Of a DNA stretch of 40,463 nucleotides, positions 5,412 through 27,300 are shown piece by piece. Under the pieces are notes generated by a model. That model was given only the letters and a program-made list of their open reading frames with translations. It was not told where the DNA came from and searched no databases. This DNA is from an uncultured Thiotrichaceae bacterium (GTDB taxonomy: Bacteria > Pseudomonadota > Gammaproteobacteria > Thiotrichales > Thiotrichaceae). A program made the translations under genes and the position numbers. How positions within the stretch are numbered: position 1 is the first letter of the stretch; each line of letters begins with the position of its first letter. Location of the stretch: contig CALAMO010000051.1 of NCBI GenBank assembly GCA_937925855.1, forward strand, positions 1 through 40,463. Reading direction: 5' to 3'.

Positions 5412-5447
5412 TCAGTGTTAACCCTTAATTCAATGTTAACCCTCAAT
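5412..5447 (+). repeat. Tandem 18-bp repeat upstream of hemE
   Basis: Two adjacent copies, TCAGTGTTAACCCTTAAT and TCAATGTTAACCCTCAAT, match at 16 of 18 positions. Each contains the palindrome GTTAAC. They end 20 bp before the hemE start codon, so they lie in the leader or the promoter. They could be an operator or a local duplication. Confidence 0.75.
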
Positions 5448-5467: not shown

Positions 5468-6547
5468 GTGAGTAATGCTGTGTCGCATCTGGATAATGAC
5501 CGCTTTCTGCGTGCCCTGCTGAAACAGCCTGTTGATACCACACCGATTTGGATTATGCGTCAGGCCGGGCGATACCTGCCGGAATATAAAGCGACCCGTA
5601 AACGTGCGGGCAGCTTTATGGATCTCTGTAAAAATGCCGATCTGGCCTGCGAAGTCACGCTACAGCCACTAGAGCGTTTTGAACTTGATGCCGCGATTTT
5701 ATTCTCAGACATTCTGACCATTCCTGATGCGATGGGGTTGGGCCTGTACTTTGCTGAGGGTGAAGGGCCGGTGTTTGAGCGTCCGCTGTGTAATCGTGCT
5801 GCGATTGAGGCGCTGGGCGTGCCTGATCCTGAAGGTGAATTGGCCTATGTGATGAATGCCGTGCGCACTATTCGTGCTGATCTGAACGGGCGTGTACCGC
5901 TGATTGGGTTTTCTGGCAGTCCGTGGACGCTGGCGACTTATATGGTGGAAGGCGGCTCTAGTAAGGACTTCGGCAAAGTAAAAGGGCTGCTGTATGACGA
6001 TCCGAAAGCAATGCATCTGCTGCTGGATAAGCTGGCGCAGAGTGTTACCAGCTATCTGAATGCGCAAATTGCTGCCGGTGCGCAGGCCGTTATGGTCTTT
6101 GATACCTGGGGCGGTACGCTGACGCCGCAGACTTACCGCGATTTCTCATTGAACTACATGCAGCAGATTGTGGCGGGCTTAAAACGCGAAAATGCCGGGC
6201 GGCGGGTGCCAGTGATTCTTTTTACCAAAGGTGGGGCGCAGTGGCTGGAATCGATGGCAGAAACAGGCTGCGACGGTTTGGGCCTGGATTGGACGATTGA
6301 TATTGCAGCGGCACAGCAGCGTGTTGGCGCAAAAGTCGCACTACAGGGCAATATGGACCCTTGCGTGCTGTACGCATCACCCGAGCGTATTCGGGCGCGG
6401 GCACATGAAATCGTAAAAGCATTCGCGCAGCCCACCGGGCATGTGTTTAACCTTGGCCACGGTATCCATCAGCACATTAACCCAGAGCATGTGAAGGTTT
6501 TGGTAGATGCGGTGCACGAAGCGGGATTTGAGCTGCGTGCGCACTGA
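5468..6547 (+). CDS. hemE: Uroporphyrinogen decarboxylase
   Basis: HemE removes four carboxyl groups from uroporphyrinogen III to give coproporphyrinogen III in haem synthesis (cytosolic, no cofactor). The 359-residue product has the family length. The signature [15 protein letters not shown] (26-40) supplies the substrate-binding arginines Arg31 and Arg35. [12 protein letters not shown] (79-90) carries the catalytic Asp81, and the second signature [17 protein letters not shown] follows. The start is the GTG at 5468 with GGGAG upstream; an ATG two bases earlier is out of frame. It is preceded by a tandem repeat and converges with the unknown gene at 6565. Confidence 0.96.
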
Positions 6548-12857: not shown

Positions 12858-15377
12858 ATGAAAATAATAAAGCAAACCACCATTGGGTATTTTCTGGCGC
12901 TTGTTGCTCTGGCTATGCCTGTTTCCTTGTCAGCTGCTGGAAGCCAATTGAAAAATATAACAATCGGCGGCGCGGCTTCGGGCCAAACGGCAGTGAATTT
13001 GGATTTCAATGTGCCGGTCGCGCGTCCACACACGTTTATGCTGGATAATCCTCCGCGTATTGTGCTTGATTTTCCAAGTGTTGATGTCTTGCCGGGAGCA
13101 AGACGCAATAATATGGGGGCCGGTGTCGTTCGATCCGTGTATTCTGCCAATAATAAAGGCATGGCGCGGGTGGTGATCGCACTAGCGAGTATGGCCCAAT
13201 ACACCCTCCAGCAGCGCGGGGATGACCTAGTCGTCTTATTTTCTGGTCAGAACAGTGCAGCAAGGCCGCGTGTTTCTTCCTCGCAACAGGTTGCGAACAG
13301 ACCGCCTGCTCCTAATGCAAGCTATGACTGGTATCGTAACCCTAACGGGCAGGAAGCGGGGCAGTCGGCTAATCAGTACAGTGCACAGCAGCAAGTTCAA
13401 CAACAGGCCCAACAACGTCGGCGGCAGCCTGCCGCGCGGCAGCAGTACCATGCACAGCAACAGCAGGCTCAGCAACGTGCACAGCAGCAGCGAGTACAGC
13501 AACAGCAGGCCCAGCAACGTGCGCAGCAGCAGCGAATACAGCAACAGCAAGCCCAGCAACGTGCCCAACAACAGCGAGTACAGCAACAGCAGGCTCAGCA
13601 GCGTGCCCAGCAGCAACGGATACAGCAGCAGCGTGCCCAGCAGCAACGGGTTCAACAGCAGCGCGCCCAGCCACGCCACCTTAATGCCGCGCATGGTGGG
13701 GCAAATTCCTTGCGCTCCGTGGATTTCCGTCGTAATGCTGCGGGTGGCGGACGCATTATTGTGGTGTTGCCTAGCAGCAATGCCAAGGTCTCTGATGATA
13801 AGCGTGGCAACACCTTGAATTTAGTGCTGCATAATATGGATGTACCACAAAACTGGCAGAAGCGCTTGGATGTCATGGATTTTGCTACGCCGGTATCTTC
13901 CATTCAGATCACTCAGCGAGGGGGGAATGGCCAGGTAGCGATTGTCGCTAACCAAGGTTTTAACTATCGCACTGAGATGACGAAAAATGTTTATACCGTT
14001 CATATCGATAAGCTAAAGCCGTCGCAGAAAAAGCCTAAGCTTGGTGTGAATAAGCCTAAAGTGTTTAAAGGTGACAAGCTGTCGCTGAATTTCCAGGATA
14101 TTGAAGTGCGTGCCGTGTTACAGCTACTCGCTGATTTTACGAACAAGAACATCGTGGTGAGTGACTCAGTCGCGGGTAATATTACGGTACGCCTGAAGGA
14201 CGTTCCTTGGGATCAGGCACTGGATATTGTGCTGGAATCAAAAAATCTGGGGATGCGGCAAAACGGTAATGTTATTTGGGTTGCGCCCAACGATGAGCTG
14301 GATGCAAAAGAAGCCAGAGCGCTGGAAATTGCTAAACGTAAGGTCGCGCTGGAACCATTGGTAACTGAATACATTCCAATCAATTTCGCCAAGGCGGGTA
14401 ATTTGGTTGAGCTAATTGAGAAGCGTTCAGCCACTGAAGATGAGTCCTCGTCCTCGCATTCGTTGTTGTCAACGCGCGGCAGTATCTCGTTTGATGGCCG
14501 GACTAATACTATTTTGGTGAAAGATACGCCTTCTCAGGTCAATCAGATTCGCGACTTAGTTAAAGTACTGGATGTGCCGGTGCAACAAGTGCTGATTGAA
14601 TCGCGAATCGTTATTGCAAATGACGAGTTCGGCAAAGAATTAGGTGCACGTTTTGGCGCTTCACCCCGCTGGGTGAACGGTGATTCTATTGGTATCGCTG
14701 CGGGTAATATTGGTAGTGGTGGCACCGATAACTACTATGACTCAATTGCTAACTCTCAGTCATCAGGTGGGAATATAGAGTTGCCGGGTGTGAATGATCG
14801 CCTCAATGTTAATCTGCCCGTCGTCGGTGCTGCCGGCAGCTTTGGCTTCTCGATTTTGACGTCTGATTTCATGCTGGATCTAGAATTGTCTGCCTTACAG
14901 GCCGAGAGTAAAGGTGAAATTATTGCGACCCCTCGGGTGATTACTTCGGATCAGACTAAGGCACTGATTGAACAGGGTGTGGAAATTCCCTATCAGCAGG
15001 CCAGCTCTAGCGGTGCTACCAATGTCGCCTTTAAGAAAGCGGTATTAAGCCTGGAGGTGACACCACAGATTACGCCGGATGAGCATATTTCCATGGACTT
15101 GCGGGTTAACCAGGATACGGTGGGACAGGTGTTTGCTAACGTGCCGAGTATTGATACCCGTGAAGTGCAGACTCGCGTGCTGGTCGCCAATGGTCAGACC
15201 ATTGTGCTAGGCGGAGTGCATGAGGAAAATAAAATCAACGGTGTAACCAAGGTGCCAGTCTTAGGTGATTTGCCCGTAGTCGGTCAGCTATTCCGTAAGA
15301 CTAACAAGAGTGAAAACAAGCGTGAACTGCTAATTTTTGTGACGCCTAAAATTGTTGATAGCGAAACTAAAAATTAG
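12858..15377 (+). CDS. pilQ: Type IV pilus secretin PilQ, with Gln-rich linker
   Basis: PilQ forms the outer-membrane gate through which the pilus passes. The order is: signal peptide (1-26), first AMIN domain (about 30-130, peptidoglycan binding), a Gln/Arg/Ala-rich linker (176-272) with four perfect-length 14-residue repeats, second AMIN domain (about 283-390), N0/STN (FKGDKLSLNFQDIEVRAVLQ onward), an N1 domain, and the secretin barrel to residue 839. The end carries VPVLGDLPVVGQLFRKT, the secretin signature. Length is above typical because of the linker. It is the last pil gene and is followed after 65 bp by aroK. Confidence 0.95.
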   Translation: MKIIKQTTIGYFLALVALAMPVSLSAAGSQLKNITIGGAASGQTAVNLDFNVPVARPHTFMLDNPPRIVLDFPSVDVLPGARRNNMGAGVVRSVYSANNKGMARVVIALASMAQYTLQQRGDDLVVLFSGQNSAARPRVSSSQQVANRPPAPNASYDWYRNPNGQEAGQSANQYSAQQQVQQQAQQRRRQPAARQQYHAQQQQAQQRAQQQRVQQQQAQQRAQQQRIQQQQAQQRAQQQRVQQQQAQQRAQQQRIQQQRAQQQRVQQQRAQPRHLNAAHGGANSLRSVDFRRNAAGGGRIIVVLPSSNAKVSDDKRGNTLNLVLHNMDVPQNWQKRLDVMDFATPVSSIQITQRGGNGQVAIVANQGFNYRTEMTKNVYTVHIDKLKPSQKKPKLGVNKPKVFKGDKLSLNFQDIEVRAVLQLLADFTNKNIVVSDSVAGNITVRLKDVPWDQALDIVLESKNLGMRQNGNVIWVAPNDELDAKEARALEIAKRKVALEPLVTEYIPINFAKAGNLVELIEKRSATEDESSSSHSLLSTRGSISFDGRTNTILVKDTPSQVNQIRDLVKVLDVPVQQVLIESRIVIANDEFGKELGARFGASPRWVNGDSIGIAAGNIGSGGTDNYYDSIANSQSSGGNIELPGVNDRLNVNLPVVGAAGSFGFSILTSDFMLDLELSALQAESKGEIIATPRVITSDQTKALIEQGVEIPYQQASSSGATNVAFKKAVLSLEVTPQITPDEHISMDLRVNQDTVGQVFANVPSIDTREVQTRVLVANGQTIVLGGVHEENKINGVTKVPVLGDLPVVGQLFRKTNKSENKRELLIFVTPKIVDSETKN
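13455..13622 (+). repeat. 42-bp tandem repeat (four copies) inside pilQ
   Basis: Residues 200-255 are four consecutive 14-residue units, QQQQAQQRAQQQRV alternating with the same unit ending in I. A degenerate tail follows (QQQRAQQQRVQQQRAQ). The DNA copies differ mainly at synonymous CAA/CAG positions. The unit length is a multiple of three, so copy-number change would lengthen or shorten the linker without a frameshift. Confidence 0.95.
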
Positions 15378-17042: not shown

Positions 17043-18187
17043 TGCCTGCGCCGTATGCGGTTCATCCACAGCAGAGCCGGGGTCGGCAATATGCTGAGCC
17101 TGCACCCGCTTATCGCAGTGAATTTCAGCGAGACCGTGATCGTATCATTCACTCCAAGGCATTTCGGCGGCTGGAGTATAAGACGCAGGTCTTTGTTAAT
17201 CACGAAGGTGATTTGTATCGTACCCGCCTGACGCACTCGCTCGAAGTGGCCCAAATTGCCCGTTCGGTAGCGCGGAGTATGGCGCTGAATGAAGATCTGG
17301 TGGAAGCGATTGCATTAGCACACGACCTGGGGCATACGCCGTTTGGCCATGCTGGGCAGGATGCCTTGAATAAATGCATGGCGGACTATGGTGGTTTTGA
17401 GCATAACCTACAGTCGCTGCGTGTGGTCGACTGGCTGGAAGATGCCTATGCCGATTTTTCTGGGCTGAATCTATGCTTCGAGACGCGGGAGGGCGTGCTT
17501 AAGCACTGCGCGCTGAAGCATGCGCAGGCGCTGGGTGAGGTTGGACAGCGTTTTCTCGATAAAACTCAGCCATCGTTGGAAGCGCAGCTGACGAATATTG
17601 CGGATGAGATTGCGTATAATAATCACGATATTGATGATGGCTTGCGTTCCGGGTTGATCTCACTGGAACAGCTGCAGGAGGTGGCCGTTTTTCAGCAGGT
17701 TTGGCAGGCAGTGAACGCCCGCTACCCGACATTGACGGGGCAGCGTTTGATTCATGAAATACTGCGGCGTCTGATTGACCTCATGGTGACAGATCTCACT
17801 GAAACCAGCCTAGCCGCACTGCGGGGCGCGCATATTGCTGATATAGACGGTGTGCATCAGCATGGTACCCCATTAATGCAGTACAGTCCGGCGCTGCGCG
17901 CGCAGAAAAATGAGCTGAAGCGCTTCCTGCGCCATAATCTGTATTTTCACCCCAGTGTCTATCGTTCAACTTGGCGGGCGCAGCAAATTATCGAAGCACT
18001 GTTTCAGGCGTTTATGCAGGATACGCATCTCTTACCGGCGGAGCACCGTCAGTTCGCGCTGCGCTATAGCGAGACAGCGGGTGAGAGTGGGCAGGCCCGG
18101 GCCATTGCAGATTATATCGCGGGGATGACGGATCGTTATGCGATGAAGCAGTATAGCGAGCTGTTTGATTTTTCGCGTCTAGTGTGA
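17042..18187 (+). CDS. dgt: Deoxyguanosinetriphosphate triphosphohydrolase-like protein
   Basis: An HD-superfamily hydrolase expected to split dNTPs into deoxynucleoside and triphosphate. Substrate preference cannot be read from the sequence, and this shorter class (381 aa) is often called dGTPase-like. Motifs include [21 protein letters not shown] (split here as [12 protein letters not shown] and [10 protein letters not shown]), His65 in LTHSLEVAQ, the HD pair His94-Asp95 in [13 protein letters not shown], and [11 protein letters not shown]. The ATG at 17042 shares a base with the aroB stop; a GTG one codon earlier is possible. It is the last gene of the run from pilM. Confidence 0.92.
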
Positions 18188-18280
18188 CATTTTTCGGTTG
18201 GTCTCTTTTCTTTGCCCGTTGTGTATGGGCTAAGGCATACTTTTAAGCCTGTGGCATACCATTTTTCATGTGAGTGAGCG

Positions 18281-18754
18281 ATGACCCCTGCGATTAATCT
18301 GTTGCAATGTGCGGGCTGTGACTTCCAGGTGCATGAGTACCGTCACAATCCTGGCAGCAGCGCTTACGGTCAGGAAGCCGCTGAATTATTGGGTGTTCCC
18401 GCTGAGCGGGTTTTTAAAACCCTGTTAGTGGCGCTCGATGGTAATGCGCGGCGTTTGGCCGTTGGCATTATACCGGTTGTTCGTCGCTTGGATGTGAAAG
18501 CACTCGCCAAAGCGATGGGGGCAAAAAGAGCAGAAATGGCCGACCCGATACAGGCTGAGCGTGTGTCGGGTTATCAGGTCGGGGGCATTAGTCCCTTGGG
18601 CCAGAAGCGGTTGTTGCCGACCGCGCTGGATCATTCAGCGCTTGAGCATGAGACGATTTTTGTCAGTGGTGGGCGGCGTGGTCTTGAAATTGAATTAGCG
18701 CCGGAGCATTTGTTGGCCTTGTGTAAAGCGGATGCCGCTGCACTGTGTCGTTGA
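18281..18754 (+). CDS. ybaK: YbaK/EbsC-type aminoacyl-tRNA deacylase
   Basis: A 157-residue trans-editing domain. Family members hydrolyse mischarged Cys-tRNA(Pro), and the same fold serves ProRS editing. The central signature is VFKTLLVALDGNARRLAVGIIPV with the catalytic-site Lys in FKTLL. YQVGGISPLGQKRLLPT carries the GGISP loop that shapes the thiol-sensing pocket, and the end has VSGGRRGLEIELAPEHLL. Length and motifs match YbaK well. It stands alone with an upstream gap of 93 bp after dgt. Confidence 0.92.
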   Translation: MTPAINLLQCAGCDFQVHEYRHNPGSSAYGQEAAELLGVPAERVFKTLLVALDGNARRLAVGIIPVVRRLDVKALAKAMGAKRAEMADPIQAERVSGYQVGGISPLGQKRLLPTALDHSALEHETIFVSGGRRGLEIELAPEHLLALCKADAAALCR

Positions 18755-18793
18755 CCGTGCCTTGAACCGTAATCGGTGCTGGAGAGACAATAA

Positions 18794-18846
18794 GTTAAGC
18801 ATAGGTTAAGCACATTTGCCTGGTATGGCCCAGTGTTGCCTATACT
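18794..18846 (+). promoter_or_regulatory. galU promoter with 11-bp-phased direct repeats
   Basis: TAAGTTAAGCA and TAGGTTAAGCA are consecutive 11-bp direct repeats (GTTAAG cores at 18794 and 18805, 5-bp gap). They end just before a weak -35 TTGCCT (18816-18821), which is 19 bp from a good -10 TATACT (18841-18846). A third GTTAAGC lies at 18851. One-turn phasing next to a poor -35 is the layout of OmpR/PhoB/PmrA-type activator sites. The minus strand reads CTTAAC-N5-CTTAAC. The regulator is inferred only. Confidence 0.55.
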
Positions 18847-18888
18847 GAAGGTTAAGCGCAGGGATACAAGCGATAAAAAGGATAAGAG

Positions 18889-19806
18889 ATGCTAGAACAA
18901 AGTAAACATAAAATTCGTAAGGCGGTTATTCCGGTAGCGGGTCTGGGTACTCGTATGCTGCCCGCAACGAAGGCGATTCCGAAAGAAATGCTCCCGGTGG
19001 TTGATAAACCGCTGATTCAGTACATTGTGACGGAATGTATTGAGGCGGGCATTAAAGAAATCGTGTTGGTGACGCACAATAGTAAGAACTCGATTGAAAA
19101 CCACTTTGATACCAGTTTTGAACTGGAGACTATGCTGGAAAAGCGGGTTAAACGTCAGCTATTAGATGAAGTGCGCTCGATCTGTCCGAAAGATGTCACG
19201 ATTATGCATGTGCGTCAGGGCGAAGCCAAAGGGCTGGGGCATGCCATCATGTGCGCGCACCCGGTGGTGGGTGATTCGCCCGTTGCAATTTTGCTGCCCG
19301 ACGTGCTGATTGATGATGCGGCGAGTAACTTGAAACAGGATAATCTGGCCGAAATGCTGCGGTTGTATGATGAGACCGGCATTAGCCAAATTATGGTGGA
19401 GCCGGTGCCCATGGACAAGGTATCGTCCTATGGCGTGGTGGATATTAATGGCCATGAAGTGGCCCCAGGGGGATCAGTCCCTATGTCTGCGATTGTAGAG
19501 AAGCCTGCGGTCGAGGATGCACCGTCTAATCTTTCTGTCGTAGGGCGTTATGTGCTGTCACCGCATATCTGGAACTGGCTGCGCAAGACCCCACTGGGGG
19601 CTGGCGATGAAATCCAGTTGACTGATACGATCGGCTTATTGATGCGCGAGTATCAGGTTAATGCCTTTCAAATCAGCGGTAAAAGTCATGATTGTGGCTC
19701 CAAGCTTGGCTATATGACAGCCAATGTTGAATATGGCGCCCGCCACCCACAAACCGGCGAACGTTTCATTGAATTTCTCAAAGGGTATGTGCGCACCTTG
19801 TCATAA
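18889..19806 (+). CDS. galU: UTP-glucose-1-phosphate uridylyltransferase
   Basis: GalU makes UDP-glucose from UTP and glucose-1-phosphate, supplying LPS, exopolysaccharide and UDP-glucuronate pathways in the cytoplasm. The 305-residue product has the nucleotide-binding signature [20 protein letters not shown] (16-35), [10 protein letters not shown], the LLPDVLIDD site for the metal Asp, [20 protein letters not shown], and [10 protein letters not shown] before the C-terminal dimer helices. Length is normal. A clear ribosome-binding site (AAGGATAAGAG) precedes the ATG. It is transcribed alone from a promoter with phased repeats. Confidence 0.95.
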
Positions 19807-27267: not shown

Positions 27268-27300
27268 GGGATTGATGGGATTGATGGGATTGATGGGATT
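27268..27300 (+). repeat. 9-bp tandem repeat GGGATTGAT before the dehydrogenase gene
   Basis: Three exact copies of GGGATTGAT and a partial fourth end just before the ribosome-binding site AAAGGGAG of the dehydrogenase gene (ATG 27317). Copy number could vary by slippage and shift the distance between promoter and start. The stretch is readable as Met-Gly-Leu repeats only if a TTG/ATG further upstream were the start, which I consider less likely. Confidence 0.9.

Follow-up and report, generated by a model that had tools for sequence, protein, structure and literature searches.

A phased direct repeat upstream of galU

Which regulator, if any, reads the short direct repeats that precede galU in an uncultured member of the Thiotrichaceae? 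The window analysed here is the whole of a 40,463-nucleotide stretch (contig CALAMO010000051.1 of assembly GCA_937925855.1, positions 1 to 40,463 of the forward strand), and an initial annotation had proposed that these repeats form a PmrA/QseB-type box through which a two-component system controls envelope modification. By direct reading, the heptamer GTTAAGC occurs three times on the plus strand upstream of galU, at 18794, 18805, and 18851, within an intergenic region of 134 bp. Copies 1 and 2 are spaced by 11 bp, head to tail, in the promoter region (CTTAAC-N5-CTTAAC in the minus-strand reading), with GTTAAGCA recurring at +11, and AGGTTAAGC is common to copies 2 and 3. The features of the region are as follows.

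18281..18754, plus strand: upstream gene, aminoacyl-tRNA editing domain protein (PF04073), presumably YbaK-like
18794..18799, plus strand: half-site 1, GTTAAG (GTTAAGCA runs to 18801), by direct reading
18805..18810, plus strand: half-site 2, GTTAAG, 11 bp after half-site 1, by direct reading
18816..18821, plus strand: weak −35-like hexamer TTGCCT, by eye, absent from the consensus scan
18841..18846, plus strand: −10-like hexamer TATACT, by eye, absent from the consensus scan
18851..18856, plus strand: isolated half-site 3, GTTAAG (GTTAAGC to 18857), 46 bp after half-site 2
18878..18883, plus strand: likely ribosome binding site AAGGAT, by direct reading
18889..19806, plus strand: galU, UTP-glucose-1-phosphate uridylyltransferase (TIGR01099; Pfam NTP_transferase)

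The identity of galU is secure by its score against TIGR01099 (369.9 bits; cut-off, 326.8), and the layout described in the initial annotation was borne out in each of its parts: the first two GTTAAG/CTTAAC repeats are 11 bp apart, the pair adjoins a weak −35, copy 2 ending 5 bp short of TTGCCT, and the third GTTAAGC overlaps the expected start of transcription, as placed from the −10. The −35-like and −10-like hexamers are separated by a 19-bp spacer, and 30 bp separate the end of half-site 2 from the −10; a consensus promoter scan of positions 18100–19000, in which spacers of 16–18 bp were allowed, returned no promoter. The search for a terminator between the upstream gene and galU found a single one, which is inside the upstream gene.

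Three other readings of the region were discarded. Sigma-54 promoters obey a fixed spacing between their GG and GC elements, and in TGGCCC...TTGC before galU these elements are one base too close. GTTAAGC fits the integron core GTTRRRY, but the region has no inverted repeat of the kind that an attI/attC reading would call for. As to an RNA element at galU, Rfam gives a single over-threshold match across the window, the tRNA found at 1339–1411.

The repeat is rare locally but the motif is not broadly enriched

When the window was shuffled 200 times with dinucleotides preserved, the exact galU pattern arose twice, and shuffling of the 134-bp intergenic region produced an 8-mer repeated at +11 in 24 of 20,000 cases and any 7-mer present three times in 16 of 20,000. 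As the motif was chosen after the fact and a few such cases are expected over thousands of intergenic regions, the rarity of the galU repeat, set against the number of intergenic regions per genome, is notable, not decisive. When up to two mismatches were allowed, the window held three matches, which is at chance level (shuffle mean, 1.87; 31 of 100 shuffles reached three).

The initial annotation had suggested a genome scan for the motif near envelope-modification genes. In the source genome (3.57 Mb), GTTAAG-N5-GTTAAG with at most one mismatch was found at 12 sites, compared with 10 for the reversed control, and no enrichment near such genes was seen at the sites whose surroundings were identified. 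Three of the 12 sites fall inside ORFs; the two exact ones (control, 0) precede galU and a gene resembling an ABC-transporter ATPase, and one of the remainder precedes rpoS. A longer pattern built from the galU repeat and searched with up to three mismatches matched galU alone in this genome. Across the nine genomes of the genus there were seven exact matches (control, five) and, at one mismatch or fewer, 84 matches compared with 123 for the control, counts above control being confined to the source genome and a second genome, G031. The motif is therefore not broadly enriched, which is one half of what the initial annotation had named as counting against its proposal, and chance alone could supply the galU site. 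From the control counts (five in the nine genus genomes and five in 16 genomes of a second group, g2), exact chance matches are expected at ∼0.3–0.6 per genome.

Two exact copies elsewhere are recorded here as separate observations. The second exact site of the source genome (locus L001, C12:116014-116030) lies ∼250 bp before the ABC-transporter-ATPase-like gene, and a GTTGAG begins 8 bp upstream of it. In G031, an exact GTTAAG-N5-GTTAAG (C46:50912-50928) is located between two genes that we take to be outer-membrane-assembly-like and Skp/OmpH-like.

A 17-bp element is conserved at rpoS

Four of the seven exact matches in the genus lie upstream of one and the same gene, rpoS, whose product passes both NCBIfam RpoS models in the source genome and in genome G025. 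A search for RpoS over the family matched 58 of 60 genomes, and upstream regions were taken from the best 30 of these 58, none of them from groups g3 or g7. The consensus at rpoS is the 17-bp RTTMAG-N5-RTTMAG (R = A or G, M = A or C). Among these best 30 of 58, an exact site proximal to the promoter is present in 21 upstream regions, namely 9 of 9 from the genus (g1), 11 of 13 from g2, and the one from g4 (21 of 23 for these three genera together, although members of a single family do not count as independent samples), and an exact site at any position, proximal or distal, is present in 23 of 30. The reversed control gave 0 of 30 exact and 1 of 30 at one mismatch. The two g2 exceptions carry GTTAAG-N5-GTTAAT and a degenerate copy; the source genome has ATTAAG-N5-GTTAAG in the same place; and none of the seven rpoS upstream regions from g5, g6, and g8, three other genera, within the same best 30 of 58 has the element within one mismatch.

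The proximal site is also fixed in position. In each of the 20 rows anchored on it, the second half-site is followed at a distance of 26 bp by an extended −10 (TGnTAnnnT, located by a simple pattern), and the element adjoins the place where a −35 would be; three further rows were anchored elsewhere. Farther upstream, a distal RTTMAG-N5-RTTMAG occurs without mismatch in 18 of 23 and with at most one in 21 of 23. Its distance from the proximal site is 80–84 bp in 18 of these 21 (84 bp in 11) and 93, 95, and 68 bp in the others, the proximal anchor of the 68-bp case having been set by hand; the copy of the source genome, with one mismatch, is the one 93 bp up. The five-base spacer is strongly preferred at the distal site: other spacers of the true pattern gave 0–2 of 23 exact and 0–3 at one mismatch or fewer, and the reversed control had no match in any of the 23, whichever of eight spacers was used. 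Constant spacing to the −10, together with a distal copy about eight helical turns up, suggests either an activator or a looping pair at rpoS.

The element was then traced in named genomes, where 80 rpoS loci (one too short to use) gave 13 of 79 upstream regions with the element at one mismatch or fewer and 0 of 79 with the control. The closest named RpoS matches are Thiotrichaceae, and the carriers of the element include Thiothrix, Thiofilum, and Thiolinea; from this comparison, group g2 is probably Thiothrix.

The same element precedes csrA

In g2, exact GTTAAG-N5-GTTAAG occurs 121–123 bp before the start codon of csrA in 10 of 16 genomes. Genome-wide, 24 exact matches were found in 15 of the 16 g2 genomes (control, five); 10 are at csrA, 11 at confirmed rpoS genes, one has the flank of the rpoS site of genome G045, and two are elsewhere, so that 22 of the 24 are accounted for by rpoS and csrA. 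Similarly, eight csrA genes from eight of the nine genomes of the source genus carry the repeat 114–123 bp before the start, six with no mismatch to RTTMAG-N5-RTTMAG and two with one. The copy of the source genome reads GTTCAG-TCTCA-GTTCAG. The conserved targets are thus rpoS and csrA rather than envelope-modification genes.

Just upstream of the csrA repeat in the genus (loci L222–L229), a near-dyad, TGTTGCTTTTTGtCAC-TTAA-TGGTAAAAGTACAACA, recurs with variation; it is perhaps another operator or the terminator of the upstream gene.

At galU the element was found in the source species only

We compared 250 bp of upstream sequence from 31 galU loci (30 of the family and one more), drawn from seven of the nine genus genomes (the source genome included) and from other genera; one locus, whose contig ends at the start codon, was left out, and 30 were usable. 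RTTMAG-N5-RTTMAG has a single exact match in the window, at galU (control, 0), and five matches at one mismatch or fewer (control, two). Among the 30 usable galU loci, this site is again the only exact case; with one mismatch allowed and both strands searched, 28 of the other 29 still lack a match. The remaining one, G031, has a one-mismatch match on the reverse strand, GTTAAGTGTATATTAAT, which is either chance or a hint of turnover. The element is therefore not conserved at orthologous galU promoters, in contrast to the 23 of 30 exact at rpoS. The galU site has the same orientation as the rpoS sites, but its distance to the −10 is 30 bp as opposed to 26 bp.

Two readings compete most closely at this point. 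The reading we prefer, with a probability of roughly 0.45, is that the galU repeat would be a species-specific recruit to a putative regulon whose core is rpoS and csrA. According to the other, the pattern is functional at rpoS and csrA but the galU repeat arose by chance or as a neutral, lineage-specific feature that no regulator reads, and to this we give somewhat less than an even chance. It would account for the absence of the site from the other galU loci compared (1 of 30 exact), for a spacing to the −10 unlike that at rpoS, and for the second exact match of the source genome (L001), which is equally unexplained, and it is in keeping with the 0.3–0.6 exact chance matches expected per genome. 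It fits less easily with a repeat that stands directly upstream of promoter-like sequence, in the orientation seen at rpoS and with a third GTTAAGC nearby, and with the rarity of three identical 7-mers (16 of 20,000 shuffles).

Comparison with known response-regulator boxes

The rpoS/csrA element looks like an OmpR/PhoB-family operator; it and the galU repeat were compared with described boxes. The PmrA box is CTTAAG-N5-NTTAAT, and the galU repeat shares its TTAA-N7-TTAA core and, read on the minus strand, differs from it by one base per half-site, as the initial annotation had it (PMC3973317). The differing base is a terminal C in both half-sites, and CTTAAK-N5-NTTAAK is not matched; the element at rpoS and csrA also differs from the PmrA box by its variant with C as the fourth base, and this form, GTTCAG at csrA, departs from the TTAA core. 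A search of the source genome with the PmrA consensus CTTAAK-N6-TTAAK gave four matches, as did the control.

Other boxes come as near. The ArcA box consists of direct repeats 11 bp apart from center to center, with extra repeats in most sites (PMC3798270), and in Shewanella the half-sites are of the GTTA type (PMC2262068); the galU repeat thus shares GTTA(A) repeats at 11 bp with the ArcA boxes of Escherichia coli and Shewanella. In E. coli, the rpoS promoter is moreover bound by phosphorylated ArcA, which represses it (PMC10948607). The family element differs from ArcA sites in having a G after GTTMA in almost every conserved half-site and in allowing C as the fourth base. For CreB, the cre/blr tag is given as TTCAC-N6-TTCAC (PMC4689548); the csrA form of the source genome, TTCAG-N6-TTCAG, has the same spacing and is one base per half-site away, whereas the proximal rpoS sites carry TTAAG rather than TTCAC. 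The resemblance to PmrA is not specific, because the ArcA architecture and the CreB tag are similarly close. Among the papers listed in searches of the open-licence literature, none described an RTTMAG-N5-RTTMAG element, which is weak evidence that the element is undescribed so far.

Candidate regulators

Twelve OmpR-type regulators were found in the source genome (96.6% complete). None of them is an equivalog of PmrA, QseB, or ArcA (NCBIfam cut-offs of 330, 345, and 334 bits, respectively), the best score against any NCBIfam model being 310.6 bits. The highest PmrA score, 187 bits, belongs to L055, a regulator related to PmrA, QseB, and TctD whose best PDB match is BasR/PmrA and whose DNA-binding domain is located as follows.

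C20:152980-153204, source genome: DNA-binding domain of the L055 regulator

Against the ArcA model, L052 scored 158.9 bits and L051 146.8 bits. The best NCBIfam model for L052 is CreB (232 bits; cut-off, 273), and no creD-like ORF was seen on reading its 7-kb contig. The recognition helix of L052 resembles those of ArcA and CreB, but this likeness is suggestive only, because that of the BaeR-like L051 is similar.

The small genome G031 (96% complete) has six OmpR-type regulators and has kept the element at rpoS and csrA. Five regulators of the source genome (L045, L049, L051, L052, and L053) have reciprocal-best matches there, and L045, L051, and L052 have them in all three genomes compared; the comparison took in all 12 regulators of the source genome, 6 of 6 in G031, 12 of 14 in G034, and 11 of 18 in G005 and is complete for G031 alone. 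None of the six regulators of G031 pairs with L055 as a reciprocal-best match. In the 300 bp upstream of the 41 OmpR-type regulator genes of these four genomes, approximate regions because the most upstream in-frame start codon was used, no exact site was found, and autoregulation thus gives no clue to the regulator; the PhoP-like gene L049 comes nearest, with a one-mismatch site upstream of it on the reverse strand. Separately, CTGTCATAAAACTGTCAT, which we take to be a complete PhoB-type Pho box, lies just before the L055 gene (PmrA/TctD-like), ending ∼50 bp before its start (locus position 1063).

We consider it very unlikely that the galU repeat is a PmrA/QseB box controlling galU for envelope modification. 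Consistent with that proposal are the shared TTAA-N7-TTAA core (PMC3973317), the presence of L055 as a PmrA/QseB/TctD relative, and a parallel in Legionella, where PmrBA positively regulates csrA transcription (PMC5338858), so that a response regulator activates csrA, a gene that also carries the element here. However, the OmpR-type regulators found all score below the PmrA and QseB cut-offs, L055 lacks a reciprocal-best match in the very genome where the sites are kept, the PmrA consensus is no more frequent than its control, the csrA variant GTTCAG leaves the TTAA core, and the galU site is not conserved. Of the initial proposal, the box layout of the OmpR/PhoB family is supported, and the 17-bp pattern is a conserved promoter element elsewhere in the family of organisms; the attribution to PmrA/QseB is not supported.

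A reader from outside the OmpR/PhoB family would also have to use direct repeats, as BosR of Borrelia reportedly does, and we regard such a reader as a distant outsider. BosR is reported to control rpoS through a novel DNA-binding mechanism, and the terms "rpoS promoter" and "direct repeat" both occur in that paper (PMC3037356). It also speaks for such a reader that none of the OmpR-type regulators could be linked to the site; against it, head-to-tail hexamers phased at exactly 11 bp, with the strong preference for spacer 5 at the distal rpoS site, usually point to OmpR/PhoB dimers.

A putative regulon of rpoS, csrA, and galU

In the preferred reading, that of a recruited galU, the repeat would be a head-to-tail, 11-bp-phased operator for dimers of an OmpR/PhoB-family response regulator. 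From the sites, their conservation, and their spacing, we infer that a single response regulator may read the rpoS, csrA, and galU sites and that galU may have been recruited in the source species when a copy arose beside its promoter; the supply of UDP-glucose would thereby be coupled to the stationary-phase and carbon-storage switches. That one response regulator directly wires rpoS (through two operators), csrA, and galU in this species is a tentative proposition, which we rate at a little under even odds. Because the spacing at galU is 30 bp, the same activating contact as at rpoS is disfavored there, and the galU site, if functional, is likelier to serve in repression or in a looser upstream role.

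Of these results, the conserved element of the rpoS and csrA promoters is the one to retain. If one regulator does act on both genes, it would govern, as a master switch of transcription, the general stress sigma factor as well as the carbon-storage regulator and would offer a single testable entry to the decision between growth and survival in Thiothrix-type sulfur bacteria, and galU would illustrate how a single lineage brings a metabolic gene under such a switch. In the search for the regulator, the conserved 17-bp site can serve directly as a probe.

Other repeats in the window

Three further repeats were observed in the window. At 5417–5447, just before an ORF at 5468, GTTAACCCTTAAT and GTTAACCCTCAAT form a 13-bp direct repeat with one difference, 18 bp apart. 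A tandem 9-bp repeat (GGGATTGAT) at 27268–27300 surrounds the TTG that is listed as start codon for the ORF at 27272. Finally, dense CAGCAAC/CAGCAGC repeats at 13455–13665, most of them spaced in multiples of three, fall inside an ORF of 839 amino acids (12858–15377).
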